Assembly: GCF_000002425.4 (NCBI RefSeq)
Contig: NC_037256.1
Span: 7,348,328 to 7,412,327 of the forward strand
Direction: 5' to 3'
From: Physcomitrium patens
Taxonomy: Eukaryota; Streptophyta; Bryopsida; Funariales; Funariaceae
DNA length: 64,000 nt
Below, in pieces: positions 11,849-36,015 of this stretch (position 1 is its first letter; each line of letters opens with the position of its first letter). Under the pieces are notes generated by a model. That model had not been told where the DNA came from. It was given only the letters and a program-made list of their open reading frames with translations, and searched no databases. Both the position numbers and the translations under genes were made by a program.

Positions 11849-14800
11849 TCATCTTGGTTTTGATGGATGTCCTTGATGAAAAACTTTGACTTTAGCTGAT
11901 GCATTTGCTAGATTCCTGGATGGCTCCCATGTGTGCTCACTAATATCATATCCGCACCAATGAACAAGATATTCCAGCTTATTTCGGCGCCGCCTTGAGT
12001 CTAATATCTCTTCCACCTCAAATTCTTCATTATTATCTACTTCTATAGGAGGCGGTGGCATTTGTCTTCTTCCTTGTATATCCATTGTCTTATATGGTTC
12101 AAGAAGAGACACGTGGAATACAGGATGGATCTTCATTGACTCCGGTAGATGTAACCGATATGCAACTGGGTTGATCTGTTCAGAAACAGAAAAGGGGCCA
12201 AGCCTACGATAGTCCAATTTGTCACAAGGTCGAGTGGTCTTGATATTGCGACGAAGTAGCCATACCTTATCACCCACGTTGAGTTGTGGTTGCTCTTTAC
12301 GATATACATCTGCATTTATCTTTTGTCGTTCTTGAGCTTTCTTCAACTGCGCCTTCATTATTGCATGTAACTCTGACAACCGATTTGCCATATCTTCTGC
12401 TGCAGGATTATCAACTTTTGAAAAATCAAAAGTATCAAGTCGTGGATGATAGCCATAATTGGCAAAGAAAGGTGTTTGTTGCGTGGAGAAATGTACCGTA
12501 TTATTATAAGCAAACTCTGCCAATGGCAGAAGGTTTGTCCAATCATCTTGTTGGTAGTTGATGGTACACCTTAAATACTGTTCCAAGACTTGGTTTACGC
12601 GCTTTGTTTGTCCATCAGTTTGAGGATGGAAAGCTGAAGATAGCTTTATGTCCACTTTTAAAATCTTGAAAAGAGTCCTGCAGAATCTCGACACAAATTG
12701 AGTTCCCCTATCCGATATGATATCTTTAGGTAATCCATGATAGCGATAGATATTATCAATGAAAAGCTTAGCTGTTTCTTCACCTGTGATAGATTTTGTA
12801 CATGGCATAAAATGTGCCATCTTGGTGAAACGATCTACTATCACAAATATAGAATCATAAGATCTTGAGTTTGGAAGATCTGTGATGAAATCCATAGAAA
12901 CAGAAGACCATGGTTGTTCTGGTATAGGTAATGGCTGAAGAAGTCCGTAAGGTCGATGTCTAGGAATTTTTGATCTTGAACAAATATCACATGATTGTAC
13001 AAAGTCTTTGACTGACTTCCACATTTGTGGCCACCAAAAATCTCTTGATATGAGTTCCAGAGTCTTATTATATCCAAAGTGACCTGCTGCTGGAAAGTCA
13101 TGACGTGCTTGAAGAACACGCAAACGTGCTTTTCCTTCTGGAACATATAGGCGTCCTTCAAAATATAATAGATTATTCTTGAACTCGAACTTAGAAGAAT
13201 CATGAGACTTGGAAGAATTATTCTCGATATCATAAACAAGAGGGTCTGAGGACATACTGGACTGGATTTGCTTGAGAAAAGTTGAATCAACAGTCAGTGT
13301 TGATTTCACTACTGGGAGATGAAATTGCTCCGGTTTCAAGAGGACCGTTCTTTGTTGCTCAAAAGCTGTATCTCCTTCTTTTGGTACAAAATAAGAACGT
13401 CTAGACAGGGCATCGGACAAACCTTGTTGTTTTCCTGGCCGATAAGTGATAATGAAGTCGAATCTTGACAAAGACATACTCCAACGAGCTTGACGACGAT
13501 TCAACACGCGTGCTGACATGAAATACTCGAGGTTCTTGTGATCTGTATACACAGTGACTGGACTAGAAGCGCCTTCTAGATAATGACGCCATTCTTGAAA
13601 AGAATCCACGATTGCAAGAAGTTCTTTATCGTGGATCTCATAATTGATCTCGGCTGCTGAGAATTTTCTTGAATGAAAAGCTATAGGATGAAGTTTGTCA
13701 TCTATTCCCATTTGTGATAAAACTGCATCCAAGGCAAAATCCGATGCGTCTGTTTCCATAAAAAATACCTTGGAAAAGTCAACACGATATAAGACTGGTG
13801 CAGAGACAAACGATGTCTTCAAGGCTTCAAATGCTGCTTCCGCTTCTTGATTCCATTGGAATTTATCTTTACTAGTCAAGCGTGTAAGTGGAGCTGCAAC
13901 TCGTGAGAAGTCTTTCATGAAGATCCGATAGTAATTGGCAAATCCCAAGAAACATTGGACATCTCTTTCAGTCTTTAGAATCTTCCAATCCATGATTGTT
14001 TGGACTTTCTTAGAATCCATCATAAGACCATCATTTGAAATGATGTATCCTAAAAAGTCAACTTGAGTAGTGTGAAATACACACTTTTCCATCTTGGCGT
14101 ACAATCCTGCATCTCTGAGTTTTTGTAATACTTGACGAACATGTATTTCATGTTCTTCAACATTCTTAGAATAAATCAGGATATCGTCTAGGTAGCAGAC
14201 GACAAAATTGTCTAAGAATTCACGAAATACATCATTCATGAGATGTTGAAAAGCAGCTGGTGCATTCGTGAGTCCAAAAGGCATGACATTGTATTCAAAG
14301 TGTCCGTACTTGGTTCGAAACGCAGTCTTCCATTCATCTCCTTCTTTGATCCGTACTAGATTATATGCTCCTCTTAGATCTATTTTTGTATAGATCTTAG
14401 CTTGATTTAACTGGTCAAGGAGTCCTGATATCAAAGGTAATGGATACTTGTTCTTGATTGTGATCTTGTTGAGTCCTCGATAGTCAACACACATTCGTAA
14501 AGATCCATCTTTTTTCTTTACGAATAAAATTGGAGCTCCTGCTGGAGATTTTGAATGGCGTATGAAATTCTTCGCTAAATTCTCGTCAATATATGTCTTG
14601 AGTTCAGCCATCTCATCTTGCGATAAAGTGTAAATTGGTCCAAATGGTGGCTGAGTTCCTTCCTTGAGATCGATTGAACAATCGTATGGGCGATGCTCAG
14701 GAAGAATATCTGCATTCTTTTTCTCAAAAACGTCTTGATAATCCTGATATTGACTTGGAATGCCACTTGAAGTCTTTACGCTTTCAGAAATAGGTGCAGT

Positions 14801-15412
14801 ATAAATAGCAAAAGTTGATCCTTCTTTTGCTGCGTGTATAAATGCTTTTGCACCTATAAGTGCGGGTTTTACTATACTAGACTCATGGTTTTTTACTTGA
14901 TTAATAGAATTGTTACTAATGCTCTGAGGAAAATCAAGTTTACGAGAAATCCAATCTATTCGAGGATTATACTTTTCTAACCATGATAAGCCTAAAATTA
15001 CTGGATTAGAGGGAGATCTAATTATATTAAAAATTACGCAACTACTATGACCATTTATTACTACATCTACAGGAAGTGTTTCGTGAGTTACATCTCTAGA
15101 AGACAACGGACGACCATCTATGACTTCTACGTGTACAGGTTTAGTTTTTTGTATTAATGATATTCTATGACATCTAGCAAATTCTTCATCTAAAAAACAA
15201 GCTGAGGCTCCTGAATCTATCAAGGCAGAGGCTTTGTAATTATTAGGTCCTAAACGCACATCTATTATAAAACAAGGAGATGGTTCTGAGGAGAGGATAG
15301 GACCTTCATTAGAAGTTGTACAAGATTCCAGCCGCACGGTCCCTATTGTAGCTGGACGTACTCGTTTTCTGACATACTGTCTTCTTTGACAGCCGTACTC
15401 CTCATTTTGTAG
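11849..15412 (-). CDS. Pol polyprotein of C1: protease, RT, RNase H, integrase, chromodomain
   Basis: Open for about 1187 codons with no clear AUG. It overlaps the end of gag by 70 nt in the -1 frame (upstream stop 15413-15415), so translation by -1 frameshift is inferred. Domains in order: protease with DSGASACFLD; RT with [28 protein letters not shown] and [14 protein letters not shown]; RNase H with [10 protein letters not shown] and [10 protein letters not shown]; integrase zinc domain (H-x-H...CDICSRSK) and core with MDFITDLP, ISDRGTQF and PQTDGQTKRVNQ; and a C-terminal chromodomain (EEFEVEEILDSRRRRNKLEY, WEPSRNL). The third catalytic residue, Glu in TERVNQ of C2, is Lys here (codon 12602-12604). 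The product should be unable to integrate by itself. The chromodomain would target silent chromatin. Confidence 0.93.
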   Translation of the reverse strand, partial: LQNEEYGCQRRQYVRKRVRPATIGTVRLESCTTSNEGPILSSEPSPCFIIDVRLGPNNYKASALIDSGASACFLDEEFARCHRISLIQKTKPVHVEVIDGRPLSSRDVTHETLPVDVVINGHSSCVIFNIIRSPSNPVILGLSWLEKYNPRIDWISRKLDFPQSISNNSINQVKNHESSIVKPALIGAKAFIHAAKEGSTFAIYTAPISESVKTSSGIPSQYQDYQDVFEKKNADILPEHRPYDCSIDLKEGTQPPFGPIYTLSQDEMAELKTYIDENLAKNFIRHSKSPAGAPILFVKKKDGSLRMCVDYRGLNKITIKNKYPLPLISGLLDQLNQAKIYTKIDLRGAYNLVRIKEGDEWKTAFRTKYGHFEYNVMPFGLTNAPAAFQHLMNDVFREFLDNFVVCYLDDILIYSKNVEEHEIHVRQVLQKLRDAGLYAKMEKCVFHTTQVDFLGYIISNDGLMMDSKKVQTIMDWKILKTERDVQCFLGFANYYRIFMKDFSRVAAPLTRLTSKDKFQWNQEAEAAFEALKTSFVSAPVLYRVDFSKVFFMETDASDFALDAVLSQMGIDDKLHPIAFHSRKFSAAEINYEIHDKELLAIVDSFQEWRHYLEGASSPVTVYTDHKNLEYFMSARVLNRRQARWSMSLSRFDFIITYRPGKQQGLSDALSRRSYFVPKEGDTAFEQQRTVLLKPEQFHLPVVKSTLTVDSTFLKQIQSSMSSDPLVYDIENNSSKSHDSSKFEFKNNLLYFEGRLYVPEGKARLRVLQARHDFPAAGHFGYNKTLELISRDFWWPQMWKSVKDFVQSCDICSRSKIPRHRPYGLLQPLPIPEQPWSSVSMDFITDLPNSRSYDSIFVIVDRFTKMAHFMPCTKSITGEETAKLFIDNIYRYHGLPKDIISDRGTQFVSRFCRTLFKILKVDIKLSSAFHPQTDGQTKRVNQVLEQYLRCTINYQQDDWTNLLPLAEFAYNNTVHFSTQQTPFFANYGYHPRLDTFDFSKVDNPAAEDMANRLSELHAIMKAQLKKAQERQKINADVYRKEQPQLNVGDKVWLLRRNIKTTRPCDKLDYRRLGPFSVSEQINPVAYRLHLPESMKIHPVFHVSLLEPYKTMDIQGRRQMPPPPIEVDNNEEFEVEEILDSRRRRNKLEYLVHWCGYDISEHTWEPSRNLANASAKVKVFHQGHPSKPR

Positions 15413-16350
15413 TTACGTCGCTTCTTTGGACAATGTTGAACAGTGTGCTTAGGTTCTCCACAATATAAGCACAATCCTTCTTGTCGACGACGAGACTTTT
15501 CTTGCTCAGTAAGAGGTTTGAAACGTACCGCATTAATTTGCATATCCTCTACTTCTGAAGGTATGTGTTGAGGAGACGTCGGTGTTGCCATTGAATTGTA
15601 GTAACGTTGAGGCCTACTTGTGCGACTCTCGGATCGAAATTCAAAAAGTCGATTGTCGTACTTCACAGCAAAGTCAATTGCTTGACTCAATGTTTGAGGA
15701 TCAGGTAAATTAAGCATCAATTTCTTTACCTCATATTGTAATCCGTAGAGAAATTGACTCACAAGTGCGGCATCATCCCACTTGATATCAGTTGTAAGTT
15801 GTCGAAATTGCGAAGCATATAATGTTACTGATCGATTGCCTTGTCGCAAAATACGGATCTTGTTGGTTGCAACACGAATTGCATCATGTTCTCCAAACAT
15901 GGATCGAAACTCCGCCAAAAAAGCCTCCAAATTATCCAATATTGGATCTCGTCGTTCAAGAAAAGATGAAAACCATGACAATGCTGAACCTGAAAGAAGT
16001 GTACCAATGAATCTAACTTGTGACCCTGGAGTTGGATAGCTCTGGGATTGAAGTTCAATCACTAATTGGACCTGATTGATGAATCCTCGAAACTTGGATC
16101 TGGTACCATCAAACTTCTCAGGCAAGGCCACTCTCGGTTCTGTAACACTCGAAGGGTGTTCCATTCTGGGAGAAGGGACATGGTTTGGTGCAGATGTTGA
16201 AGCAGCCCCAATCATCTCTATATCTTCACTTCCTACCATTCTTGTTGCTCCTTGTGGTGGTAAATTGAGTTGATGCATCGCAAGCATTAACTCCCTCAAT
16301 TGTTCTTGCATCTGTGCCATTGCACTCTTCATTTCAACAAGCTCTGCCAT
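15343..16350 (-). CDS. Gag of C1
   Basis: 335 residues from ATG 16348-16350 (MAELVEMKSAMAQMQEQ) to TAG 15343-15345. An N-terminal coiled-coil-like stretch is followed by a retrotransposon capsid domain (LPEKFDGTRSKFRGFINQV, SGSALSWFSSFLE) and one zinc knuckle CLYCGEPKHTVQHC (C-x2-C-x4-H-x4-C). No stops interrupt it. C2 gag is the same length class and closely similar, which supports the start. It would assemble the particle and bind element RNA. Confidence 0.93.
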   Translation of the reverse strand: MAELVEMKSAMAQMQEQLRELMLAMHQLNLPPQGATRMVGSEDIEMIGAASTSAPNHVPSPRMEHPSSVTEPRVALPEKFDGTRSKFRGFINQVQLVIELQSQSYPTPGSQVRFIGTLLSGSALSWFSSFLERRDPILDNLEAFLAEFRSMFGEHDAIRVATNKIRILRQGNRSVTLYASQFRQLTTDIKWDDAALVSQFLYGLQYEVKKLMLNLPDPQTLSQAIDFAVKYDNRLFEFRSESRTSRPQRYYNSMATPTSPQHIPSEVEDMQINAVRFKPLTEQEKSRRRQEGLCLYCGEPKHTVQHCPKKRRNYKMRSTAVKEDSMSENEYVQLQ

Positions 16351-16549
16351 AGTAGCACTTAGAAAAGAGAAGATATCTAATAACGCTCAAAACAAATAGA
16401 AGAGAGGAATTGATAACAAAGAAAATACTAAGAACAATATCAGTTTAAAAGAAGGTAATCCGCAACTTCTAATGCGCTTATGTCTTATCAAGAAAAATGG
16501 GTAATCCACTCTTAATCAAGAAAAGACAAAGCTCTCATATTGTAAGTGT

Positions 16550-16560
16550 ACTCTTGTCAA
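16550..16560 (-). other. Candidate self-primer annealing site of C1
   Basis: On the minus strand, two bases (GA) after the 5' LTR end, the sequence is TTGACAAGAGT. It does not begin with TGG, so it cannot pair with a tRNA CCA end. It is perfectly complementary to ACTCTTGTCAA inside the same LTR (16739-16729), which begins 31 nt from the TATA start. A sequence close to the initiator-tRNA primer site core (TATGAGAGC) occurs further in, at 16539-16531. Confidence 0.7.
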
Positions 16561-16562
16561 TC

Positions 16563-17092
16563 TGTCAAGGACAAGAACTCGATGAAAGCTAAAGAATAAG
16601 TGAGACTTTTCTGAAAAAGAAATAGGACAAAATAGAAATATGTATATTAAGAAAGAAACTGGAATGGCTATTGCCAAAATACAAGAAAACTAGAGACCCT
16701 TGAAACTAGACTAGAAGCAAGAAAGGAGTTGACAAGAGTGAAGAGGGCTTCACTCTTGCCTCTATATATACTATCTAACTAGAAGCCACGTGGCGATGTT
16801 CTATAAGACCTCCAATATATGTTGACTTTCTAGGCCACATGCCTTTGCTTGCAAGGCAAGTTTTCTATGGATAGACCACGTAGTTAGCTTGTTCTTTAAG
16901 CTTCCAACATGCGTGGCACATGGCTAACTTGTTGACCAAGTTTCTAACCTAAAAGTCAACTATAGACTCCTATAAAGTCAAAGCAGCGTCTATGAAGCTT
17001 CTAAGAAGCTTCTCTAGAAGATATTACACAATTAACCTACTTTTACATACTTTTATCTATTCATATAGGTAATTATATGTATGTCCGTGACA
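16563..17092 (-). repeat. 5' LTR of C1
   Basis: 530 bp, TGTCCGTGACA side at 17092 is the element's U3 end and TGTCAAGG at 16563 is the U5 end. It contains the element promoter. A palindrome GAAGCTTCT-A-AGAAGCTTC lies near 16994-17012. Confidence 0.93.
16729..16794 (-). promoter_or_regulatory. Core promoter of C1: G-box, TATA box, predicted start
   Basis: On the minus strand: G-box palindrome GCCACGTGGC (16794-16785), then TATATATA (16770-16763), then an inverted repeat with 11-bp arms (CAAGAGTGAAG / CTTCACTCTTG), then ACTCTTGTCAA (16739-16729). The last begins 31 nt after the first T of the TATA box, the usual spacing for a plant transcription start. G-boxes are bound by bZIP and bHLH factors, so light or stress control is possible. 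The start itself is inferred. Confidence 0.7.
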
Positions 17093-19583
17093 GAAGGAGG
17101 TTTATACTATACTTGAATCTTTTCAAGCACCAGAAGTTATTGTAGAGTCAAAATATAAAGTAGTAGATAAAAAGATAAAACATGTTGCCGGACCTTTACT
17201 AGAAGATTCTAAGGAGCAAATAGAAGAAGCATCAAAAGAAGAGAGTTTAAGAGATCTAAAGAAGATTAGACATCAGTTTACAAAAGAGACTTTTGAAGAA
17301 TTGAAGATTGGATGTGATGGTTCATTATTTCCAACAAAAATTGAATATTTTAAAAAAATACTTACGAAAGGAGGTAAATCATTTGTCTTTGGGTCTTGTG
17401 AAATAGGATGTGTAGATCCTAATGTTGTTGCTCCTATGATTATCTTTACAGTACCTCATGTGCCTTGTAACTTAAGGCCAATTCCCATGCCAAGGGCACA
17501 TTTATCTAAATTGGTAGAATTATTGAAAGAAAAGTTGTGAATGAAAATTTTGGAACCTTCTTTTGCTTCATATTCTAGTCATTGGTTTACAATGCCTAAG
17601 AAAAATGGATCATTATGTTTTATTCAAGATATACACTCAATGAATGTAGTAACTATAAGAAATGCAGGTATAAGATCTTTTGTAGATGAGTTTGCAGAAG
17701 CATTTGGGGGAAGGGCAATTTATTCAATGGATGATTTATATTCGGATTATGATCAATTTCAACTTACGTATGGAAGTAGAGATCTAACAACTATGAGAAT
17801 GCCACTTGGATTACTTAAAATATATACTCTCCCATAAGGTGCTACTAACACAATTGCACATATGATGAATGGGATGAACAAGGTATTAAGAGACTTCATT
17901 CCTGAAAAAACTATGCCTTTTTTAGATGATGTTCCTATCAAAGGATGTAAAGAAGGAGAAAAAGATGAAACTTTAGATGAGAGAAGGTGTTACAAATATA
18001 TTGTTGATCATATACAAGATTGTGAAAAGATTTTAACTTGACTTGAAGAGGTTCATCTTACACTTTCAGGAGCAAAATCTACATTTGGAGTGCAAGAAGT
18101 TCTTATTGTTGGGCATTTGTGTGGATTTTATGGGAGAAAGCCAGATCCAAGCATAGTTGATGCAATTGGAAAGATGAAAGATTCATGTGACTCTTTAATA
18201 GAAGTATGTAAGTTTTTAAGAGCTTGTGTATTTTATCGTATATGGATTCTTCATTATGCTCATGTAGCAGATCCATTTTATGAATTATTACATAAGGATT
18301 ATCGATTTAAATGAGAAAGAAAGTATATTGAAGCAATGCAGAAGCTAAAGATGTTATTGGTGGCACCTTTAATTTGAAGAAAAATTGATTATGACTATAA
18401 TAGACAAGTAATTCTTACTGTGGATACTACTCCTATTGCTATTGGATAGACTGTGGATCAAGATGATTCAAGTGGAAATAGATTTGCAGTTCGATTTGGA
18501 GCTAAAGTTTTAAGTACTCGCTAACGTACATATTTGCAAGTCAAAAGAGAACTTTGGGGAGTTATTTTGGCTATGGAAGCTGAAAGGGATTATTTGATTG
18601 GTGCAACAGTAGTAATTGAAATAGATTGCTTGCCATTACTTGGAATGATTACTAATTGTTCAATATCGGATATTGTAATATTAAGATGGATTGCTTATAT
18701 TAAGTCATTAAATCCTGAATTTAAGCATGTTGCAAAAAAAGATAATTTAATAGTAGACATGCTATCTCGAGCAAGATATGAAAGAGAAGACGAAATAGTT
18801 GAAGACATTCATGATGTTGGATCAAAATTCTATTCAGTATCAAATCTTAACAAAGAAGACAAGCTATTTTTTTAAGAATTTTATGAAAGAAAATTATTAG
18901 ATATTGGTCATTACTTGAATACCTTGACTAAGTAAGAAAATTGGTCTACAGAAAAATTTAAACAAATAAGAAAAAAGACATATGGATTTTTGCTTCAAGA
19001 AGGATTCTTATGGAAGAGACCAAAGAAAGGAATTGGAATGCCACAAAGACTGATAGGCAATAAAGAAGAGAAACAAAAATTATTAAAAGGATTTTATAAT
19101 AATTTATGAGCAAAACATGGAGGAATTTGGGCTACTTTTGCTAAACTTAAGAAATGATATTGATAGAAAAATATGTATCGAGATGTGCTCTTATTTATAG
19201 AGTCATGTGAAATTTGTCAAGCGTATTCTAATATACGACATCGAAATGGACTTCATCCTACATATCCTTTAGCTGTTCATTTTAAATGGATTGTTGATTT
19301 GGTTATTATGCCAATTAAATTATAGCAAATGAGATATTTGGTCTTAGCTTGTGAAGATTTATCAAATCAAGTAGAAGGAAGAGCATTGAGAACAAAATCT
19401 ATAGAAGAAATTTGTAGATTTTTACTTGAAGATGTTATTTGCCGCTACAGATGTGTAAGAAAAATCACTACAGATTGTGGAGAATTAAATGTATAAGAAG
19501 CTCGTGAATTCTTTGAAAGATATGGAATTAAACTATCATTGACTACTGCTTATAATCTTGAAGGAAATGTAGAAAGTAAACGT
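17093..19583 (+). pseudogene. Pol of A2, part 2 (RT, RNase H, start of integrase)
   Basis: Resumes A2 after C1 and is collinear with A1 pol. Visible parts are AGPLLEDSKEQ, RPIPMPRAHLSKLVELLKEK, the RT box MPFLDDVPIKG (near 17915), RNase H (LTVDTTPIAIG...), then an integrase region with CEICQ and a D-D core to NLEGNVESKR. Stops include 17538, 17836, 18040, 18312, 18448 and 18523. Both FLDD aspartates survive, but the frame cannot be translated. It is cut at 19583 inside integrase by G1. Confidence 0.85.
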
Positions 19584-21247
19584 TGTCGTGTTGTAACACG
19601 AGTACACTGTGAAAATATAAAGAAAGAGGACTTTTATTAATGTTCAGTTACCTCGAATATTGGGAGCAACGACCAATTCTAGTGCAAATACTGAGAGGCT
19701 AGGTTCAGTCACCCCGTTACAGTCAGCCGGGGCATACTGAAATGCTTCGTTCGATTCCAATAACAGAAGTCAGCAGGAAGGGAAAGGACCAATTCACACA
19801 ACGGGTGAGCCTGGTTCGAAGAGCCAATTGGATCCAATTTCAAGAATCCAATCTGAGTCCTCTTACCGAATATGAGACTTGAATTGGTCGGGCAACCCAA
19901 TGCAGTCTAATTACGGGAAAATCCAAGTCTTACTACGGGCCTCAACCAATCTGACGCGAAGGACCAATTTGATCCAATTACGGGAACATCCGGGTCTTAC
20001 TACTGGACTCTTAGCCGATATGAGACCTGAATTGGTCTGACGACTCAATGTGGTCCCGATTACAGGGTTTCGATTCTGTTTCAGGCTGTCCTGTTCTCTG
20101 TGCCGTTTCAAGGAACGTTGTTTTTGGTAAAAAGATCTCTTAAAGATAAAAACAAAGGAGAAAGCTCTGACGGCAAGAGCCAATTCCGGATCCAAGATAG
20201 AAGGAGCCAATTCCAGATCCAAGATGGAAGGAGCCAATTCCGGATCCAAGACGGAAGATTGAAGAAATTCAGAGGCTAGGATTTGAAAGAGGGGAGAATT
20301 AGGGTTAAAGGGGAGGAAGGTTAAGAAATGAGGGGGTTTTTTTTCAGATTGGGTTTTTTGATCGAAGAGCTAGCTTCAAGTTCTTTTCAAGGTCACTAGT
20401 TTGGTTTCATTAGGGTTTGTGAGGGGAGAGAAATCGCTGCTCAAACTCAGTGTTTATTTTGGTGTTTCGGATTTTATATAAAACATTGATGGTTTGCATT
20501 CTCAATTGGTTTGTGCAAGTCGTGTAGCATCTATAGATCAAAATTTGGTATTGTCTGGATAGTTGAGTGTGCTAAGTGTATACAAAAATTTGTGTTAATC
20601 TAACGATGCAATCAAGAGATAACTGGGTTTTAGTACAAAGGGTTGTTGGAAGTTGGCAATCTAGGGTTGGATAGGGTTTCTGTGATATCTAAAGATCTAC
20701 TAGTTGGATTGATGTAATTTTTGGCTTGGTAATAGAAGATTTGGAGATCAAGTGGCTATTCAATTTTGAGCTGGAGTTAACGGTTGACAAAGGAGAAATC
20801 ACTTCTGGAGTTTCTACATCAAATTTCAAGGTTGCGGCTGAGTGGCATCAGTGCGGTTTTTGGGCGTTTTCTTGCAATCTGTAAGTTGGGTTGGACTGAA
20901 ATTTTTTGAGCATATAGAAGGCTTATACTGGTATTTGGGTGCAAAATTTCACACTAAGTGGACGGTTGGATCAAAAGTTACAGGTCGTCAAAGCTCACTG
21001 GCTAGGGTTAGGACTTGTTAAGAAAAACAAAAATAACTTAATTATAAAAGAAATAAAGCAATTGGAATATTGTATGGTTAAAATGACTATGAGGAGTGTT
21101 TTTAAATACTTGGAAATTGATATTTCAATTATATTCTTCATACATGAATAAAATCTATTAGGGTTCTTTGTTATTTACAAAAACAACTATACCTTCCACA
21201 GCCAGATATCCAGTGTATTCCTAAACAAGACAACACGTAATACGACA
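19584..21247 (+). repeat. 5' LTR of G1
   Basis: 1664 bp, TGTCGTGTTGT ... TACGACA. At 19640-20150 it has the gag-derived block also seen in other family A LTRs. At 20177-20257 there are three tandem units of about 28 bp (GAGCCAATTCCGGATCCAAG and variants). Near its start CGTGTT-GT-AACACG can form a small hairpin. Confidence 0.9.
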
Positions 21248-21251
21248 TAAG

Positions 21252-21269
21252 TGGTGAACCCGACGTGAA
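21252..21269 (+). other. tRNA-type primer binding site of G1
   Basis: TGGTGAACCCGACGTGAA, four bases after the 5' LTR. Same sequence and spacing as in A1 and A2, which links G1 to family A for replication. Confidence 0.85.
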
Positions 21270-21513
21270 CGTTTGCGGTGGATGGTATTGAATTTTTTAT
21301 GTGGTTATTTGAATTGATGGTGCAAGATGACAAGGTTGATTTTAGAGTTTTTGGAAGACTTGGAGCTTTGGAGGATATTTTGAAAAGCAATGGTGATATT
21401 TGGATTATTATAGAGTATAGTATGGATTTATAGTCATCTTGGGGCATTTTGAGGTATCATGAGTTATTTATTGGAGCATTTCAAGGGATATTTTTTAATA
21501 ATTGTGGAAGAAA

Positions 21514-23193
21514 ATGGAAGATATTTCAATGAAGTCTTTGGATAGATTGAATACTTTGGATGGACCAAATATTAAAGAGTTTTTTGAGGCTTTTTGTATA
21601 TTTATGGAAGAACAACAAAAGATACAAGCAATTGAAAGGGATATCACAAAGGCATTACAAGGAATTTTTAACAAATTTGGGAGGTTTAACGGATGCAACA
21701 TCACTAAGTTTTTACAAGTTTATACATGTGAGATGGAGACAAGCCAAATCCCTGAGGCAAAGATGATTTCAAGCTTTTATTTGGCTATTGAACCTGGGAT
21801 TCATAAAAAGGTGAAGAGATTACTTGAAAGGGGTGTGGAGACATGGTCAAAATTTCAAGAACTTTTGAAGAAAGAATTTATTGATGCAAATGAGGATAAG
21901 ATTACCGAGCGACAGTTTTTGGATTGGATAGAATTACAATTAGGCATGCATATGGATCTTTATGAATTCCTGAAAGAATTTGAAAAGAGGTTTTATCAGC
22001 TGTCATCCTCAGAGAGACAGTCATTGGATGCTATAAAAATAGAATTATTTTTAAATGGTCTTGATGATGCCATAGGAGACAAACTTTTTATACTTCTTGC
22101 AGATGAGTCTACGGAGAGTGGTTGTATTAACAATTGGGAAGAGTTGAAAGAAGCAACAATTCTTTTAGCAAAGCAACAAAGAGCACAAGCTAAAGGAGTT
22201 GGAGTATGGTCTAAGAAATCTTCTACTTTGGCTTCTATATCATCTTTATCAATACAAGGGATTAATCTTGAAAAAAGAGAAATGGAACAGCAACTGGAGG
22301 ACTTCGAAGGAGGAGCCAATTTTTTGCAAATGAAAGAAAGTGGATCTTTTATCAAGGATAGTGAAGGAGAGAACAAAGACTTTGATCAAATTATTACTAT
22401 GGAAGGTCAAAATATCAAAAAAATTGAAGGCAATATGGAACTCAAGGATTTAGAAATTAATGACAATAAGGATGAAAATTATGGCTATTCTACATTGAAT
22501 ATGTTTATGCAAGTGGATGATGGCAATTTGGATGGAACATCTCATGGTGGTAAAAGAGATTATGGTGAAAGTTGTAAGATTTTTCAAGAATATGAGGTTT
22601 CACAAGGCTATGAAATTTTTCAATATTATGAAGTAATACAACATATTGAGATAACACAAGGTTATGATGTTTCACAAGGATGCATTCAAGAAGAAATGAA
22701 GGATGTTTTACAAGGATACATTCAAGAAGAAATGATAGATATTTCACAAGATAATGTGGCGAAAGAAGATTATGGAATCAAAGGTAAAGGTACTAAATCA
22801 ATGGCTTTAATCAAGTTAATTGTGAGTACTAATCTTCTGGACCAAGATCAAGGTTACATGGATAATGCACATGTATTGGGGGCACAATTGGATTTTGATA
22901 AGAAAAAGATTCATCATGAAGTGTGGAATTCAAAGGTTAAAAATCTAAAAATCTTCAAATATAAAGACATGGGCAATGGATTTAAGGATTATATGGACGT
23001 CTTAAATCAAGCATGGAATCAAAGGAACAAGAAAAAAGATGCAAGCATGATGTATGTGGCCATATGGAAGAAGCTTCAATTAAATCTTTCCATTTCAAAA
23101 TTTGTACCTCGCCAATGGTTTGGTCATGTACAAAGTTGGATGTTTCCAATTTACTTGTACAAGATGGATACATGGATTTTTGGTATTGGATAA
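21514..23193 (+). CDS. Intact gag-like protein of G1
   Basis: 559 residues from the ATG at 21514 (MEDISMKSLDRLN) to the stop at 23193; a TTG 12 nt upstream is in frame but is not needed. The first ~220 residues align by eye with A1 gag: KALQGIFNKFGRFNGCNITK against KALQAVVNKIDQFDGRNIS, then FLDWIEL and LKEFEKRFYQLSS. There is no zinc knuckle. The middle is acidic and carries an imperfect repeat (YEVSQGYEIFQ, YDVSQGCIQEEM, LQGYIQEEM). A part near the end (KGTKSMALIKLIVSTNL) may match the C-terminal gag block of A1. The frame has no stops although the surrounding copies are full of them, which suggests recent activity or selection. It likely packages its own RNA into particles made with A-type gag-pol. 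Confidence 0.8.
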   Translation: MEDISMKSLDRLNTLDGPNIKEFFEAFCIFMEEQQKIQAIERDITKALQGIFNKFGRFNGCNITKFLQVYTCEMETSQIPEAKMISSFYLAIEPGIHKKVKRLLERGVETWSKFQELLKKEFIDANEDKITERQFLDWIELQLGMHMDLYEFLKEFEKRFYQLSSSERQSLDAIKIELFLNGLDDAIGDKLFILLADESTESGCINNWEELKEATILLAKQQRAQAKGVGVWSKKSSTLASISSLSIQGINLEKREMEQQLEDFEGGANFLQMKESGSFIKDSEGENKDFDQIITMEGQNIKKIEGNMELKDLEINDNKDENYGYSTLNMFMQVDDGNLDGTSHGGKRDYGESCKIFQEYEVSQGYEIFQYYEVIQHIEITQGYDVSQGCIQEEMKDVLQGYIQEEMIDISQDNVAKEDYGIKGKGTKSMALIKLIVSTNLLDQDQGYMDNAHVLGAQLDFDKKKIHHEVWNSKVKNLKIFKYKDMGNGFKDYMDVLNQAWNQRNKKKDASMMYVAIWKKLQLNLSISKFVPRQWFGHVQSWMFPIYLYKMDTWIFGIG

Positions 23194-23238
23194 AGAATAA
23201 TGGTGTACTGAATTTGGCACATACCGGAGGATGTGCAG

Positions 23239-23254
23239 GTTCAGAGGGGGTGGA
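23239..23254 (+). other. Polypurine tract of G1
   Basis: GTTCAGAGGGGGTGGA directly before the 3' LTR. It would prime plus-strand synthesis. A2 has a similar tract, AGAAAGGGTGGA, at 32555-32566. Confidence 0.8.
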
Positions 23255-23697
23255 TGTCGTATTGTAATACGAATATACTGTGAAAATATAAAGAAAGAGG
23301 ACTTTTATTAATGTTCAGTTACCTCGAATATTGGGAGCAACGACCAATTCTAGTGCAAATACTGAGAGGCTAGGTTCAGTCACCCCGTTACAGTCAGCCG
23401 GGGCATACTGAAATGCTTCGTTCGATTCCAATAACAGAAGTCAGCAGGAAGGGAAAGGACCAATTCACACAACGGGTGAGCCTGGTTCGAAGAGCCAATT
23501 GGATCCAATTTCAAGAATCCAATCTGAGTCCTCTTACCCAATATGAGACTTGAATTGGTCGGGCAACCCAATGCAGTCTAATTACGGGAAAATCCAAGTC
23601 TTACTACGGGCCTCAACCAATCTGACGCGAAGGACCAATTTGATCCAATTACGGGAACATCCGGGTCTTACTACTGGACTCTTAGCCGATATGAGAC

Positions 23698-24248
23698 TGT
23701 CACGGCCATAATCATGTAAGCTAATAATTACATATAGAAATAGGTAGAAGTAAGTAAAAGTAGATAAAAGTAAGTTAATTCTATAATATTTAATATAAAA
23801 GCTTCCTAGAAACTTCCTAGATGCTACTTTGACTTCATAGGTGTCTTTAATTGACTTTTTGGATTAGAAACGTGGTCAACAAGTTGGCCATGTGCCACAC
23901 ATGTTGTTAGCTTGAAGATCAAGCTAACTATGTGGCCCACACATAGAAAAACTTGCCTTGTAAGTCAAGGCATGTGTCCTACAAAGTCAACACATATTGG
24001 AGGTCCTATAGAACGTCGCCACGTAGCCCCTAGTTAGATAGTATATATAGAGACAAGAGTGAAGGCTTCTTCACTCTTGTCAACTCCTTTCTTGCTTCTA
24101 GTCCAGGTTCAAGAGTCTTTAGTTTCTTGTCTTGTGGCAATAGCCATTCCAGTTTCCTTTTAATATACCTACTTGTTTATATTTTGATTTTTATATCGAG
24201 ATAGCCTTTTGGTGTATATTTTCCCTCATCGAGTCTTTGTCCTTGACA
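23698..24248 (+). repeat. 5' LTR of C2
   Basis: Contains TATATATA (24042-24049) and ACTCTTGTCAA (24073-24083). It belongs to the same LTR family as C1 and C3 but is visibly diverged from C1, for example GCCACGTAGC where C1 has the perfect G-box. Confidence 0.93.
24042..24083 (+). promoter_or_regulatory. Core promoter and start-site hairpin of C2
   Basis: TATATATA at 24042-24049 is followed by a perfect inverted repeat, GACAAGAGTGAAG (24052-24064), loop GCTT, CTTCACTCTTGTC (24069-24081). The 11-mer ACTCTTGTCAA begins at 24073, 31 nt from the first T of the TATA box. If transcription starts there, this 11-mer is the RNA 5' end. Confidence 0.68.
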
Positions 24249-24250
24249 GA

Positions 24251-24261
24251 TTGACAAGAGT
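24251..24261 (+). other. Candidate self-primer annealing site of C2
   Basis: TTGACAAGAGT, two bases after the LTR end, exactly complementary to ACTCTTGTCAA in the LTR. The pairing stops after 11 bases on both sides. TATCAGAGC, the core of the usual plant initiator-Met primer site, is displaced to 24272-24280. Confidence 0.72.
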
Positions 24262-24460
24262 ACACTTACAATATCAGAGCTTTGTTTTTTCTTGAGTAAG
24301 AGTGGATTATCCCTTTCTCTTGACAAGACATAAGCGTATTAGAAGTTTGTGGATTACCCACTTCTAAACTGATATTGTTCTTAGTATCTTCTTTGTTATC
24401 AAGTCTTTCTTTTCTTTTGTCTTGAGCAATATCAAACAAATTTTTCTTCTTAGTGTCATT

Positions 24461-25465
24461 ATGGCAGAGCTTGTTGAAATGAAGAGTGCAATGGCACAAA
24501 TACAAGAGCAAATGAGGGAGTTAATGCTTGCGATGCATCAACTCAATTCACCAACACAGGAAAGAACAAGAATAGCAGAAAGTGGAGATATAGAGATGAT
24601 CGGAGCTGCTTTAACATCTACAACAAATCACGTTCCTTCTCCAATTGTACAACACCCTATAAGCACTAGAGAACCAAGAATTGCCTTACCTGAGAAATTT
24701 GATGGTACGAGATCAAAGTTTCGAGGGTTCATCAATCAAGTACAATTGGCAATTGAACTTCAACCGCAAAGCTATCCAACTCCAGGATCACAAGTCAGGT
24801 TTATTGGCACTCTACTTTCTGGTTCTGCATTATCGTGGTTTTCGTCTTTTCTTGAACAACGAAATCCAATATTGAACAATTTGGAAGCTTTTTTGGCGGA
24901 GTTTCGATCTATGTATGGTGAACACGATGCAACTCGTGTTGCAACAAATAAGATCCGAATTCTGCGACAAGGAAATCGCTCAGTAACAGTATATGCTTCA
25001 CAATTTCGACAACTTACAATTGACATCAAGTGGGATGATGCTGCACTCGTCAGTCAATTTCTTTATGGATTGCAATACGAAGTAAAGAAATTGATGCTCA
25101 ACTTACCTGATCCTCAAACTTTGAGTCAAGCAATCGATTTTGCGATAAAATGTGATAATCGACTTTTTGAATTTCGATCTGAGAATCATTCACGGGAACC
25201 TCAACGTTATTACTCAATGGCAACATCAACATCTTTGCCAAACGTACATTCGGAAGTAGAAGACATGCAAATTGACGCGGTACGTTTTAAACCTCTAACT
25301 GAGCAAGAAAAGATTCGTCGTCGTCAAGAAGGATTATGTTTATATTGCGGAGAACCTAAGCACACTGCTCAACATTGTCCAAAGAAACGACGCAACTATA
25401 AAATGAGGGGTACAACGGTCAAAGAAGACAACATGTCGGAAAACGGATTCGTCCAGCTACAATAG
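24461..25465 (+). CDS. Gag of C2
   Basis: 334 residues from ATG 24461 (MAELVEMKSAMAQIQEQM) to TAG 25463-25465. Capsid domain and the zinc knuckle CLYCGEPKHTAQHC are intact. There are no stops. The end overlaps the pol frame by about 70 nt, as in C1. It could still supply particles for itself or for relatives. Confidence 0.92.
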   Translation: MAELVEMKSAMAQIQEQMRELMLAMHQLNSPTQERTRIAESGDIEMIGAALTSTTNHVPSPIVQHPISTREPRIALPEKFDGTRSKFRGFINQVQLAIELQPQSYPTPGSQVRFIGTLLSGSALSWFSSFLEQRNPILNNLEAFLAEFRSMYGEHDATRVATNKIRILRQGNRSVTVYASQFRQLTIDIKWDDAALVSQFLYGLQYEVKKLMLNLPDPQTLSQAIDFAIKCDNRLFEFRSENHSREPQRYYSMATSTSLPNVHSEVEDMQIDAVRFKPLTEQEKIRRRQEGLCLYCGEPKHTAQHCPKKRRNYKMRGTTVKEDNMSENGFVQLQ

Positions 25466-28400
25466 GGACCGTGCAGCTAGAACCTTGTACAATTCCTAAT
25501 GAAGGTCCTATCCTCTCCTCAGAACCCTCTCCTTGTTTTATAATAGACTTATATTTAGGACCTAAGAATTACAAAGCCTCTGCTTTATTAGATTCGGGAG
25601 CCTCAGCATGTTTTTTAGATGAACAATTTGTTAAAAGTCGTAAAATACCCTTTGTACAGAAACCTAAACCAGTACATGTAGAAGTCATAGATGGTCGTCC
25701 CTTGTCTTCTGGAGATGTCACTCATGAAACTCATCTTATAAAAGTAACAATAGACGGTCATGTTAGCTACATAGCTTTTAACATAATTAAATCTCCGTCC
25801 AATCTAGTTATTTTAGGTTTATCCTGGCTAGAAAAATATAACCCTCGAATAGATTGGAATTCGCGTAAACTTGACTTTTCCAAAAGCGTTATTAATAGTT
25901 CTACGAACCAAGTAAAAAATTATAAGTCTAGTACAGTAAAACCCGTACTTATAGGTGCAAAAGCATTTATACATGCAGCAAAAGAAGGATCAACTTTTGC
26001 TATTTATGCTGCACCTATTTCTGAAAACGTAAAGACTTCAAGTGGCATTCCAAGTCAATATCAGGAGTATCAAGACGTTTTTGAGAAAAAGAATGTAGAT
26101 ATTCTTCCTGAGCATCGTCCATATGATTGTTCAATCGACCTCAAGGAAGGAACTCAGCCACCATTTGGACCAATTTACAGTTTATCGTAAGATGAGATGG
26201 CTGAACTCAAGACATATATTGACGAGAATTTAGCGAAGAATTTCATACGCCATTCAAAATCTCCAGCAGGAGCTCCAATTCTATTCGTAAAGAAAAAAGA
26301 TGGATCTTTACGAATGTGTGTTGATTATCGAGGACTCAACAAGATCACAATCAAGAACAGGTATCCATTACCTTTGATATCAGGACTCCTTGACCAATTG
26401 AATCAAGCTAAGATCTATACAAAAATAGATCTAAGAGGAGCATATAATCTAATACGGATCAAAGAAGGAGATGAATGGAAGACTGCGTTTCGAACCAGGT
26501 ATGGACATTTCGAATATAATGTCATGCCCTTTGGACTCACGAATGCACCAGCTGCTTTTCAACATCTCATGAATGATGTATTTCGTGAATTCTTAGACAA
26601 TTTTGTCGTCTGCTACCTAGACGATATCCTGATCTATTCTAAGAACGTCGAAGAACATGAAATACATGTTCGTCAAGTATTACAAAAACTTAGAGATGCA
26701 GGATTGTACGCCAAGATGGAAAAGTGTGTATTTCACACTACTCAAGTTGACTTTTTAGGATACATCATTTCAAATGATGGTCTCATGATGGATTCTAAGA
26801 AAGTCCAAACAATCATGGATTGGAAGATTCCAAGGACAGTAAGAGATGTCCAATGTTTCTTGAGATTTGCCAATTACTATCGGATCTTCATCAAAGATTT
26901 CTCACAAGTTGCAGCTCCACTTACACGCTTGACTAGTAAAGATAAATTTCAATGGAATCAAGAAGCGGAAGCAGCATTTGAAGCCTTGAAGACATCGTTT
27001 GTCTCTGCACCAGTCTTGTATCGTGTTGACTTTTCCAAGGCATTTTTTATGGAAACAGATGCATCAGATTTTGCCTTGGGTGCAGTTTTATCACAAATGG
27101 GATCAGATGACAAACTTCATCCAATAGCTTTTCATTCAAGAAAATTCTTAGCAGCTGAGATCAATTATGAGATCCACGATAAAGAACTTCTTGCGATCGT
27201 GGATTCCTTTCAAGAATGGCATCATTATCTAGAAGGCGCTTCTAGTCCAGTCACTGTGTATACAGATCACAAGAACCTCGAGTATTTCATGTCAGTACGC
27301 GTGTTGAATCGTCGTCAAGCTCGTTGGAGTATGTCTTTCTCAAGATTCGAGTTCATTATCACTTATCGGCCAGGAAAACAACAAGGTTTATCCGATGCCC
27401 TATCTAGACGTTCTTATTTTGTACCAAAAGAAGGAGATGCAGCTTTTGAGCAATAAAGAACGGTCTTCTTGAAACCGGAGCAATTTCATCTCCGAGCAAT
27501 GAAATCAACATTGACTGTTGATTCAACTTTTCTCAAGCAAATCCAGTCCAGTATGTCCTCAGACCCTCTTGTTCATGATATCGAGATTAATTCTTTCAAG
27601 TCTCATGATTCTTCTAAGTTTGAGTTCAAGAATAATCTATTATATTTTGAAGGACGCCTATATGTTCCAGAAAGAGAAGCACGTTTACGTGTTCTTTAAG
27701 CACGTCATGACTTTCCAGCAGCAGGGCACTTTGGATATAATAAGACTTTGGAACTCATATCAAGAGATTTTTGGTGGCCACAAATGTGGAAGTCAGTCAA
27801 AGACTTTGTACAATCATGTGATATTTGTTCAAGATCAAAAATTCCTCGTCATCGACCTTACGGACTTCTTCAGCCATTACCTATACCAGAACAACCATGG
27901 TCTTCTGTTTCTATGGATTTCATCACAGATCTTCCAAGCTCAAGATCTTATGATTCTATATTTGTGATAGTAGATCGTTTCACCAAGATGGCACATTTTG
28001 TGCCATGTACAAAATCTATCACAGGTGAAGAAACAGCTAAGCTTTTCATTGATAATATCTATCGCTATCATGGATTACCTAAAGATATCATATCGGATAG
28101 GGGAATTCAATTTGTGTCAAGATTTTGGAGGACCCTTTTCAAGATTTTAAAAGTGGACATAAAACTATCTTCGGCTTTTCATCCTCAAACTGATGGACAA
28201 ACAGAGCGCGTAAACCAAGTCTTGGAGCAATATTCAAGGTGTACTATCAACTACCAACAAGATGATTGGACAACCCTTCTGCCATTGGCAGAGTTTGCTT
28301 ATAATAATACGGTACATTCTTCCACACAACAAACACCTTTCTTTGCCAATTATGGCTATCATCCACGACTTGATACTTTTGATTTTTCAAAAGTTGATAA

Positions 28401-29481
28401 TCCTGCAGCAGAAGATATGGCAAATCGGTTGTCAGAGTTACATGCAATAATGAAGACACAATTGAAGGAAGCTCAAGAACGACAAAAGATAAACGCAGAT
28501 CTATATCGTAAGGAGCAACCACAGATCAACGTCGGTGATAAGGTATGGCTACTTCGTCGCAATATCAAGACTACTCGACCTTGTGACAAGTTGGACTATC
28601 GTAGGCTTGGCCCCTTTTCTGTTTCTGAACAGATCAACCCAGTTGCATATCGGTTACATCTACCAGAGTCAATGAAGATCCATCCTGTATTCTTAGAAGC
28701 TTCATAGACGCTGCTTTGACTTTATAGGAGTCTATAGTTGACTTTTAGGCTAGAAACTTGGTCAACAAGTTAGCCATGTGCCACACATGTTGGAAGCTTA
28801 AAGAACAAGGCAGAGTTTGCTTATAATAATACGGTACATTCTTCCACGCAACAAACACCTTTCTTTGCCAATTATGGCTATCATCCACGACTTGATACTT
28901 TTGATTTTTCAAAAGTTGATAATCCTGCAGCAGAAGATATGGCAAATCGGTTGTCAGAGTTACATGCAATAATGAAGACACAATTGAAGGAAGCTCAAGA
29001 ACGACAAAAGATAAACGCAGATCTATATCGTAAGGAGCAACCACAGATCAACGTCGGTGATAAGGTATGGCTACTTCGTCGCAATATCAAGACTACTCGA
29101 CCTTGTGACAAGTTGGACTATCGTAGGCTTGGCCCCTTTTCTGTTTCTGAACAGATCAACCCAGTTGCATATCGGTTACATCTACCAGAGTCAATGAAGA
29201 TCCATCCTGTATTCCACGTATCTCTTCTTGAACCATATAAGACAGTGGATATACAAGGAAGAAGACAAATGCCACCGCCTCCTATAGAAGTAGATAATAA
29301 TGAAGAATTTGAGGTGGAAGAGATATTAGACTCAAGGCGACGCCGAAATAAGCTGGAATATCTTGTTCATTGGCGCGGATATGATATTAGTGAACGCACA
29401 TGGGAGCCATCCAGGAATCTAGCAAATGCATCAACTAAAGTCAAAGTTTTTCATCAACGACATCCATCAAAACCAAGATGA
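25396..29481 (+). pseudogene. Pol of C2 with three nonsense codons and a duplicated segment
   Basis: Same domain order as C1: protease DSGASACFLDE, RT with [10 protein letters not shown], RNase H, integrase with SDRGIQF and TDGQTERVNQ, chromodomain (EEFEVEEILDSRRRRNK, WRGYDIS). TAA replaces CAA at 26188-26190, near 27454, and near 27697. After LPESMKIHPVF (28692) a 117-bp LTR fragment and a repeat of the preceding 405 bp intervene before the chromodomain. Unlike C1, the integrase D-D-E residues all look present. The polyprotein cannot be made without suppression. Confidence 0.9.
28288..29214 (+). repeat. 405-bp pol duplication with LTR fragment at the junction
   Basis: 28288-28692 and 28810-29214 are direct repeats of equal length with about one difference (CCACACAAC versus CCACGCAAC). 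Between them, 28693-28809 matches U3 of the C1-type LTR (TTAGAAGCTTCATAG to AAAGAACAAG) in sense orientation, not the LTR of C2 itself. Microhomology (TTC) is visible at the first junction. Confidence 0.92.
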
Positions 29482-29575
29482 AAATCTCTCTTATAAAAGA
29501 GACAAGATTGAGGCAAGATAACATTCAATTTCCTATCCTTGTTTGTAACTTCTTTACATTTGTGATGCTAATTAG

Positions 29576-29997
29576 ATGGAGAGCCAACAACCAGCGGATT
29601 CAACTCAAGAACCTTCGTTTGCTGACCTGCCGGACGAGACATTACGATTGTCACAACCTTCAAGACGACGCAATCGAGATGAAGATCTTCAAGAATGACA
29701 TGTTCTTCCTCGAACAGATGGTGAGATACAACGTGTTTGGTATCACGATTTGGGAAAGGACTCCCGATGTTTGGTGATTTTGCTAGAGGTAGGAACAACT
29801 CCTGATGGTGTTCTGAATATTCTATTCGAAGGAAGTTATGAAGGCCTCAATAATGATCAAATAACTGGGTGGTCTTCCCGCCCTGGTTGGGACACTACCG
29901 ATGGTTGAGAGGCCCTATCAATCATCTTCGAAGAGAACAGAGATCAGAGTATGTGGCGAATACAATTCGTCGCATCATAGATTTCCTCAACATATGA
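29576..29997 (+). pseudogene. Third reading frame of C2 after the chromodomain
   Basis: Counterpart of the C1 frame at 11331-11753: ATG 29576 starts MESQQPADSTQEPSFADLPD. It keeps the Arg codon that is TGA in C1 but has TGA after EDLQE, where C1 has CGA. A one-base loss follows after SSRPG, so the total is 422 nt instead of 423. The remaining residues (RVWYHDLGKDSRCLVILLE, GTTPDGV) match C1 and C3. Function unknown. Confidence 0.6.
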
Positions 29998-30024
29998 TGA
30001 CCGCTCCTCGTGGAACTCGTCTCT

Positions 30025-30037
30025 AGAAGGGGGGTAA
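30025..30037 (+). other. Polypurine tract of C2
   Basis: AGAAGGGGGGTAA directly before the 3' LTR; the same tract is present in C1 on the minus strand. Confidence 0.85.
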
Positions 30038-30589
30038 TGTCACGGCCATAATCATATAAGCTAATAATTACATATAGAAATAGGTAGAAGTAAATAAAAG
30101 TAGATAAAAGTAAGTTAATTCTATAATATTTAATATAAAAGCTTCCTAGAAACTTCCTAGACACTGCTTTGACTTCATAGGTGTCTTTAATTGACTTTTT
30201 GGATTAGAAACGTGGTCAACAAGTTGGCCATGTGCCACACATGTTGTTAGCTTGAAGATCAAGCTAACTATGTGGCCCACACATAGAAAAACTTGCCTTG
30301 TAAGTCAAGGCATGTGTCCTACAAAGTCAACACATATTGGAGGTCCTATAGAACGTCGCCACGTAGCCCCTAGTTAGATAGTATATATAGAGACAAGAGT
30401 GAAGGCTTCTTCACTCTTGTCAACTCCTTTCTTGCTTCTAGTCCAGGTTCAAGAGTCTTTAGTTTCTTGTCTTGTGGCAATAGCCATTCCAGTTTCCTTT
30501 TAATATACCTACTTGTTTATATTTTGACTTATTATATCGAGATAGCCTTTTGGTGTATATTTTTCCTCATCGAGTCTTTGTCCTTGACA
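30038..30589 (+). repeat. 3' LTR of C2
   Basis: About 552 bp, near-identical to the 5' LTR. Differences include AATCATATAAG for AATCATGTAAG, and GACTTATTATATCG for GATTTTTATATCG. Confidence 0.93.
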
Positions 30590-31815
30590 GAGACCTGAAT
30601 TGGTCCGACGACTCAATGTGGTCCCGATTACAGGGTTTCGATTCTGTTTCAGGCTGTCCTGTTCTCTGTGCCGTTTCAAGGAACGTTGTTTTTGATAAAA
30701 AGATCTCTTAAAGATAAAAACAAAAGAGAAAGCTCTGACGGCAAGAGCCAATTCCGGATCCAAGATAGAAGGAGCCAATTCCAGATCCAAGATGGAAGGA
30801 GCCAATTCCGGATCCAAGACGGAAGATTGAAGAAATTCAGAGGCTAGGATTTGAAAGAGGGGAGAATTAGGGTTAAAGGGGAGGAAGGTTAAGAAATGAG
30901 GGGGTTTTTTTTCAGATTGGGTTTTTGGATCGAAGAGCTAGCTTCAAGTTCTTTTCAAGGTCACTAGTTTGGTTTCATTAGGGTTTGTGAGGGGAGAGAA
31001 ATCGCTGCTCAAACTCAGTGTTTATTTTGGTATTTTGGATTTTATATAAAACATTGATGGTTTGCATTCTCAATTGGTTTGTGCAAGTCGTGTAGCATCT
31101 ATAGATCAAAATTTGGTATTGTCTGGATAGTTGAGTGTGCTAAGTGTATACAAAAATTTGTGTTAATCTAACGATGCAATCAAGAGATATCTGGGTTTTA
31201 GTACAAAGGGTTGTTGGAAGTTGGCAGTCTAGGGTTGGATAGGGTTTCTGTGATATCTAAAGATCTACTAGTTGGATCGACGTAATTTTTGGCTTGATAA
31301 TAGAAGATTTGGAGATCAAGTGGTTATTCAATTTTGAGCTGGAGTTAACGGTTGATAAAGGAGAAATCACTTCTGGAGTTTCTACATCAAATTTCAAGGT
31401 TGTGGCTGAGTGGCATCAGTGCGGTTTTTGGGCGTTTTCTTGCAATTTGTAAGTTGGGTTGGGCTGAAATTTTTTGAGCATATAGAAGGCTTATACTGGC
31501 ATTTGGGTGAAAAATTTCACACTAAGTGGACAGTTGGATCAAAAGTTACAGCTCATCAAAGCTCACTAGCTAGGGTTAGGGCTTGTTAAGAAAAACAAAA
31601 ACAACTTAATTATAAAAGAAATAAAGCAATTGGAATATTGTATGGTTAAAATGACTATGAGGAGTGTTTTTAAATACTTGGAAATTGATATTTCAATTAT
31701 ATTCTTCATACATGAATAAAATCTATTAGGGTTCTTTGTTATTTGCAAAAACAACTATACCTTCCACAGCCAGATATCCAGTGTATTCCCGAATAAGACA
31801 ACACGTAATAGGACA

Positions 31816-35463: not shown

Positions 35464-36015
35464 TGTCACGGACATATGCATGTAAGCCAATACTTACATG
35501 TATAAATAGGTAGAAGTAAGTAAAAGTAAGTAAAAGTAAGTTAATTCTATAGTATTTGATATCGTAGCTTCTTAGAAGCTTCATAGATACTGCTTTGACT
35601 TTATAGGTATCTTTAATTGACTTTTTGGAATTAGAAACGTAGTCAAAAAGTTGGCCATGTGCCACACATGTTGTTAACTTAAAGACCAAGATAACTATGT
35701 AGCCCACACATAGAAAAACTTACCTTGTAAGTCAAAGCATGTGTTCTACAAAGTCAACATATATTGGAGGTCCTATAGAATATCACCACGTAGCCCTTAG
35801 TTAGATAGTATATATAGAGACAAGAATGAAGCCTTCTTCACTCTTGTCAACTCCTTTCTTGCTTCTAGTCTAGTTTCAAGGGTCTCTAGTTTTCTTGGCT
35901 TTTGGTATTCCAATTTCTTTCTTAATATAGATATCAAGTTATTTCTATTTTATCATCTTTCTATGAGAGAAGTTTCACTTGTTTATTTATCTTTATCATA
36001 TTCTTGTCTTTGATA
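35464..36015 (+). repeat. 5' LTR of C3
   Basis: 552 bp. TATATATA at 35809-35816 and ACTCTTGTCAA at 35840-35850, again 31 nt apart start to start. The LTR end reads TTTGATA for CTTGACA. Confidence 0.92.

Follow-up and report, generated by a model that had tools for sequence, protein, structure and literature searches.

The 64,000-nt stretch of Physcomitrium patens DNA analyzed here (the window; contig NC_037256.1, positions 7,348,328 to 7,412,327) contains three chromoviruses, of which C1 lies on the minus strand and C2 and C3 on the plus strand, and our subject is the way in which they may prime reverse transcription. The long terminal repeats (LTRs) of C1 lie at 16563–17092 (5', 530 bp) and 10760–11289 (3'), those of C2 at 23698–24248 (5', 551 bp, TGTCAC...TTGACA) and 30038–30589 (3'), and those of C3 at 35464–36015 (5', with the 3' end TTGATA) and 47488–48046 (3'). 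The LTR ends are short inverted repeats (TGTCA...TGACA), and the target-site duplications are CCTTC for C1, GAGAC for C2 (23693–23697 and 30590–30594) and TTTAT for C3. Identity between the two LTRs of an element is 99.1% in C1, 98.6% in C2 and 91.0% in C3; C3 looks the oldest of the three because its LTR pair agrees least. In C1 a pol frame at 11849–15412 (minus strand) encodes protease, reverse transcriptase (RT), RNase H, integrase, SH3_Tf2-1 and a chromodomain, and is overlapped in a different frame by a gag frame at 15343–16386 (minus strand).

An earlier reading of the bare sequence (the original prediction) had proposed for these elements a layout like that of self-primed Tf1, and its coordinates were all confirmed. 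Behind the 5' LTR and a spacer GA, each element carries the primer-binding site (PBS) TTGACAAGAGT, at 16550–16560 (minus strand) in C1, 24251–24261 in C2 and 36018–36028 in C3; the PBS begins with TTG, not TGG, in all three, as had been claimed. Its exact complement, ACTCTTGTCAA, is present in all six LTRs, where it follows a C|A step and begins 31 nt past the first T of the TATA-type box TATATATA (24042–24049 in the C2 5' LTR). These copies lie at 16729–16739 and 10936–10926 in C1 (minus strand), 24073–24083 and 30413–30423 in C2, and 35840–35850 and 47864–47874 in C3, so that both 11-mers have survived in C3 despite its decay.

The reading that we favor, with a probability of about 0.88, is that the RNA of C1, C2 and C3 supplies its own primer for reverse transcription in the manner of Tf1. 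Judged from the sequence, the A of ACTCTTGTCAA would be the first transcribed base, and the RNA would fold back with its initial 11 nt onto TTGACAAGAGT just past the 5' LTR, as complementarity, covariation and predicted folding suggest. The RNase H of the element's RT would then cut after base 11, and the released 11-mer would prime minus-strand DNA; both of these steps are modeled on Tf1.

The chance level of such a pair was estimated in two ways. Matches to the 11-mer with at most one mismatch numbered 12 in the window, compared with 2.34 on average over 100 shuffles, where 12 was never reached. A looser scan, which accepted sites at TATA + 28–37 with CA no more than 4 nt ahead of the site and pair members no more than 2.5 kb apart, gave about 1.07 matches of at least 11 per window in 30 block-shuffled windows; it did not pick up C3, because the 5' LTR of that element ends in TTGATA and not in CA. 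Since the loose scan yields about one pair per shuffled window, a single copy alone is weak evidence, and the case rests on the exact position at the LTR junction, on its recurrence in three copies and on the covariation described below.

Matched primers and binding sites in copies and relatives

The host genome was searched as 470,438,890 bases in 101 contigs. With the LTR–PBS stretch of C2 as query, 30 of the 40 best matches were fetched, C2 included, and these showed the canonical primer in every case and the canonical PBS in 29; the sample is biased, because the most similar copies were taken. The corresponding C3 query gave 40 matches, the first being C3 itself and the other 39 being 90–92% alike; among the 20 of these that were fetched, primer and PBS were fully paired in 11, with a canonical primer in 15 and a canonical PBS in 14. 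A second family was reached by a protein search with P0044 (31 matches, nine fetched). It keeps a pair of its own, AGTCTCGACAA/TTGTCGAGACT, the primer being intact in all nine copies and the PBS perfect in eight. Because C2-like and second-family copies each keep their own pair, two families of one genome hold different matched primer:PBS pairs.

Further relatives came from eukaryote-like retroelement contigs present in bacterial and archaeal assemblies (45 loci). L007 has the primer AGTCTCGACAA, the primer AAGGCGAACAA is common to L003, L005, L013 and L035, L010 has AAGGTGAACAA, and L006 has the 12-mer ACTCTTGATCAA, which was aligned at its 3' end for the covariation analysis. In all seven the primer stands at TATA + 32 or 33 after a C|A step and perfectly complements a stretch two bases past the LTR end, which reads TGACA except in L035 (TAACA). 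Only loci whose 5' LTR could be read were taken, which excluded L004 and L022 among others. When C1–C3, these seven relatives and one further locus, L002, were set out as 11 rows, pairing was perfect in 10; across these 10, eight of the 11 aligned primer positions vary and every change is compensated. The 10 rows also agree in a TATA-to-primer spacing of 31–33 nt, in the C|A step and in a two-base spacer starting with G. The Tf1-like layout put forward in the original prediction is real, and covariation of the two 11-mers, which that prediction had named as a check, is seen between families. The occurrence of two families in one genome, together with relatives that carry different matched pairs, makes a prediction of self-priming hard to escape.

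L008, L009, L011, L012 and L015–L020 showed no correctly laid-out primer:PBS pair; their contigs may not reach the LTR, and they count neither way. L016 was dropped as a two-LTR element, since its repeat reads by eye as coding sequence, and a 9-mer and some AT-rich matches from the scan of the relatives were taken as chance. Among viral contigs a first search gave no relative, and a second gave one short match (L001) that was not used. The long eukaryote-like retrotransposon contigs (L002–L046) occur in many bacterial assemblies, above all in an uncultured Trichormus metagenome-assembled genome (106 matches in G001), and probably represent contamination of the reference collection. L002, L003, L005, L006, L010, L013 and L035 come from the Trichormus-labelled assembly, and we presume that these elements may belong to the fern Azolla, which harbors a symbiont of that name.

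The covariation bears on two other explanations of the layout. A host tRNA might prime at TTGACAAGAGT through an internal stretch, half-tRNA priming being described in the cited part of PMC6317226 for some plant copia lineages. A tRNA of the host would not explain why a change in the PBS goes with a change in the LTR from family to family, however, nor does it sit well with a complement that stands at TATA + 31–33 every time. ARAGORN found no tRNA gene in the 64,000-nt window, to which its scan was confined. Given the joint change of PBS and LTR and the lack of a TGG start, tRNA priming was rejected, and its half-tRNA form appears highly improbable. Alternatively, the complementarity could be a promoter or integration palindrome that plays no part in priming, an idea that draws on the inverted repeats at the LTR ends themselves and on the single 11-mer pair to be expected per shuffled window. 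Such a palindrome would not account for the exact position two bases past the LTR, for covariation at eight of 11 positions or for the clade in which these elements are placed, and we regard it as most unlikely.

A hairpin around the predicted RNA start

The 11-mer forms part of a 13-bp hairpin, at 24052–24081 in C2, that the original prediction did not mention and that would straddle the boundary between the U3 and R parts of the LTR. Directly after the TATA box of C2, the 5' arm GACAAGAGTGAAG (24052–24064) pairs with the 3' arm CTTCACTCTTGTC (24069–24081) across a 4-nt loop (24065–24068). We call the 5' arm a PBS mimic because it repeats nine bases of the PBS. The second primer copy of C2, in the 3' LTR, likewise lies within an intact hairpin; the hairpin of C1 (16760–16731) contains one G.U pair, and that of C3 (35819–35848) one A.C mismatch. 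Strip energies are −21.3 kcal/mol for C2, −19.7 for C1 and −14.1 for C3, values that none of 200 simple shuffles reached, and for 12 of 13 strips examined none of 200 such shuffles was equally stable. In each of the six window LTRs the hairpin is the most stable 34-nt stretch, narrowly so in the 5' LTR of C3 (−14.3 versus −13.7); the LTR ends of C1 and C3 used in that scan were placed a few bases off.

A hairpin of 12–13 bp with a 4-nt loop is present in nine of the 10 perfectly paired rows, C3 and L010 having one mismatch each. From one family to another its arm changes along with primer and PBS. When one row per primer type was compared, an arm paired eight or nine of nine bases of its own primer, and the arms of other types paired two to nine, the single value of nine being a G.U fit. 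Between L003 and L010 one primer base differs (C/T), and both the PBS and the mimic arm follow. At several family-level differences (C1; L007 and the second family; L005 and L013) G.U keeps the pairing, which indicates RNA rather than DNA; this argument is weakened by the true mismatches of C3 and L010 and by single second-family copies that lose pairs. Among the 20 C3-like copies the U3 arm was canonical in 10 and the hairpin fully paired in seven, and in the second family the hairpin was fully paired, G.U included, in four of nine copies and one pair short in the other five. Two single copies may be recorded here: L131 has the same C to G change in PBS and U3 arm but not in the primer, as copying of one from the other might produce, and L124 has a C to G change in the arm alone.

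Folding of the leaders was examined in nine cases. The primer:PBS helix appeared in the free minimum-energy fold of seven, namely C2, C3, L007, L003, L005, L010 and L013. When that helix was imposed and a second duplex was sought, one that joins bases following the primer to the end of the LTR, next to the PBS, was seen in L003, L005, L006 and L010. It covaries, as in GTTACGGAG:CTCCGTGAC and GTTGTGAACC:GGTTCATGAC, and corresponds to one of the two additional duplexes by which, in the Tf1 pretzel, the neighbors of the PBS pair with the LTR past the primer (pretzel as given in the cited part of PMC10085805).

Points against self-priming and the possible role of the hairpin

Several observations weigh against the reading of self-priming and are gathered here. 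The primer:PBS helix, present in most leaders, is missing from the free minimum-energy folds of C1 and L006; the second duplex is absent from the fold of L013 and has no clear counterpart in L007 or the C elements. The co-change of primer and PBS between families stands, and is accompanied by uncompensated changes in single copies. Eight of the 20 C3-like copies have one or two pairing departures, none compensated (two of the eight include G.U), and a further one of the 20, L121, was not read in register. L106, a C2-like copy, and L133, of the second family, each carry one PBS change, and the PBS of L002 is unmatched by the primer of its own 5' LTR, a further LTR fragment bearing AAGGCGAACAA being found at the far end of that locus. 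These uncompensated changes, in single or apparently old copies, look like decay. The predicted RNA start at the A of ACTCTTGTCAA is itself placed by the TATA spacing of 31–33 nt and the C|A step. As for the hairpin, L006 has the full self-priming layout without it, and within both families, the C3-like copies and the second family, the U3 arm is conserved more poorly than the primer, drifting faster than primer or PBS.

Should the RNA start lie within the hairpin, the mimic would be missing from the 5' end of the transcript and retained in the 3' LTR, so that the hairpin could form only in the 3' LTR copy or in read-through RNA. In these RNAs the PBS-like arm of U3 would pair with primer copies that do not stand at an RNA 5' end. 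Such pairing may hide these copies, with the consequence that only the true 5' end primes; the function of the arm is the least certain step of the proposed mechanism. A mimic between TATA box and start site could in this way lock the copies in 3' LTR and read-through RNA, and primer, PBS and mimic might evolve as a three-way matched set. We put this forward tentatively and think it rather unlikely, since an arm that decays faster than the primer makes a lock less likely and a by-product more so. Were it true, it would explain how a self-primed element tells apart two identical sequences, the primer at its 5' end and the copy in its 3' LTR.

The by-product in question retains Tf1-like self-priming and takes the hairpin as a result of fold-back, or of copying between PBS and U3 during reverse transcription, or as a promoter feature, in any case with no role in priming. 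We give it a substantial chance, somewhat short of even. The full layout of L006 without a hairpin and the faster decay of the arm within families both speak for it, as does L131, in which the substitution shared by arm and PBS is what copying might yield; moreover, LTR promoters often involve a hairpin according to the cited part of PMC3601003, which treats hairpins in general terms (primer fold, promoters and polypurine tract). A by-product would, on the other hand, hardly be expected to show the same 4-nt loop, the same 12–13-bp stem and an end 2 nt short of the primer end in four primer types from three assemblies, or pairing preserved by G.U at the family-level differences listed above.

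Kinship, known systems and other observations

The domain content agrees with a chromovirus identity, Pfam Chromo being matched with E-values of 7.7e-14 in C1 and 1.2e-15 in C2, and SH3_Tf2-1 with 3.6e-21 in C1. By eye, the C1 and C2 frames have F, W and Y at what we take to be the HP1 cage positions, which may point to the aromatic-cage type of chromodomain associated with non-seed plants. In a quick tree of 54 rows, built without bootstrap and with no named Tcn1 or Tf1 reference among its rows, the RT–RNase H–integrase of C1 groups with fungal Ustilago and Berkeleyomyces in a 35/54-row split (SH-aLRT, the Shimodaira–Hasegawa-like approximate likelihood ratio test, 100) that leaves out rice, Paspalum, Lolium, Centaurea, Mikania, Haematococcus and Closterium. 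Three of 57 intended rows (L032, L034 and L035) were too short and were dropped, and long tandem proteins and broken loci were represented by their best aligned piece only. We place the three elements on the Tcn1 / Tf1–sushi side of the chromoviruses; the name Tcn1 is used for them because of the tree placement, the self-priming complementarity and the published descriptions.

The original prediction had supposed the mechanism to be undescribed for plant chromoviruses, and this does not stand. Neumann et al. (2019; PMC6317226), in the part cited here, already predict self-priming for most plant Tcn1 chromoviruses, name mosses and club-mosses as hosts, state that self-priming is used by none of the other chromovirus groups of plants, and give tRNA-Met as the primer of most chromoviruses. 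Their prediction uses a complement of at least 10 bp lying 0–5 bp behind the 5' LTR; the C elements, which share the chromodomain with that clade, have 11 bp at 2 bp. Published self-priming of plant chromoviruses, as far as these passages go, has so far been based on complementarity, whereas the TATA spacing, the covariation and the U3/R hairpin come from the C elements and their relatives. The prediction of self-priming is thus already in print, and the three-way matched hairpin was not found described: the literature searched on self-priming and hairpins, seen in part and without the primary Tf1 papers and supplements, contained no U3/R hairpin of this kind, and the hairpins in the cited part of PMC10085805 are those of mitochondrial elements.

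Compared by description with the Tf1/sushi group (PMC7175516 and PMC10085805, in the parts cited), whose hosts include non-seed plants (PMC10085805), the C elements share the chromodomain and the complementarity of the first 11 RNA bases to the PBS, and four of the relatives add the second duplex by the PBS; they differ in the PBS-mimicking U3 arm, which those passages do not mention, and in that the full pretzel is not clear in them. SM-Tcn1 of Selaginella, also a Tcn1 element of a plant, likewise keeps gag and pol in separate frames; according to the cited part of PMC2864245 no evidence of priming was found in it, whereas self-priming complementarity is exact in the C elements. Seed-plant chromoviruses (Tekay, Reina, CRM and Galadriel) have the same gag–pol order and, in most, a chromodomain, but the tree sets C1 apart from its five angiosperm rows (rice, Paspalum, Lolium, Centaurea and Mikania), of whichever clade these may be. 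A dominant chromodomain family, RLG1, is expressed in Physcomitrium protonema according to the cited part of PMC7466625, and C2 may be RLG1. The overlapping gag and pol frames of C1 suggest frameshifting, whereas the second family matches a fused gag–pol in a single frame.

Other elements of the window were inspected at their repeat ends only. C2 contains a direct duplication of about 406 bp at 28287–29214, near the end of the integrase region, with copies 99.8% alike and 522 bp apart from start to start. The stretch 19584–21247 matches 23255–23697 and 30590–31815 at 97.6–98.9%, the match being interrupted by C2, and from these matches C2 seems to be surrounded by a single long LTR belonging to another element (window 19584–31815). 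The flanks of C1 (window 8816–18957) match a continuous stretch of the opposite strand, 1–3813, at 80–86%, which represents an empty-site relative.
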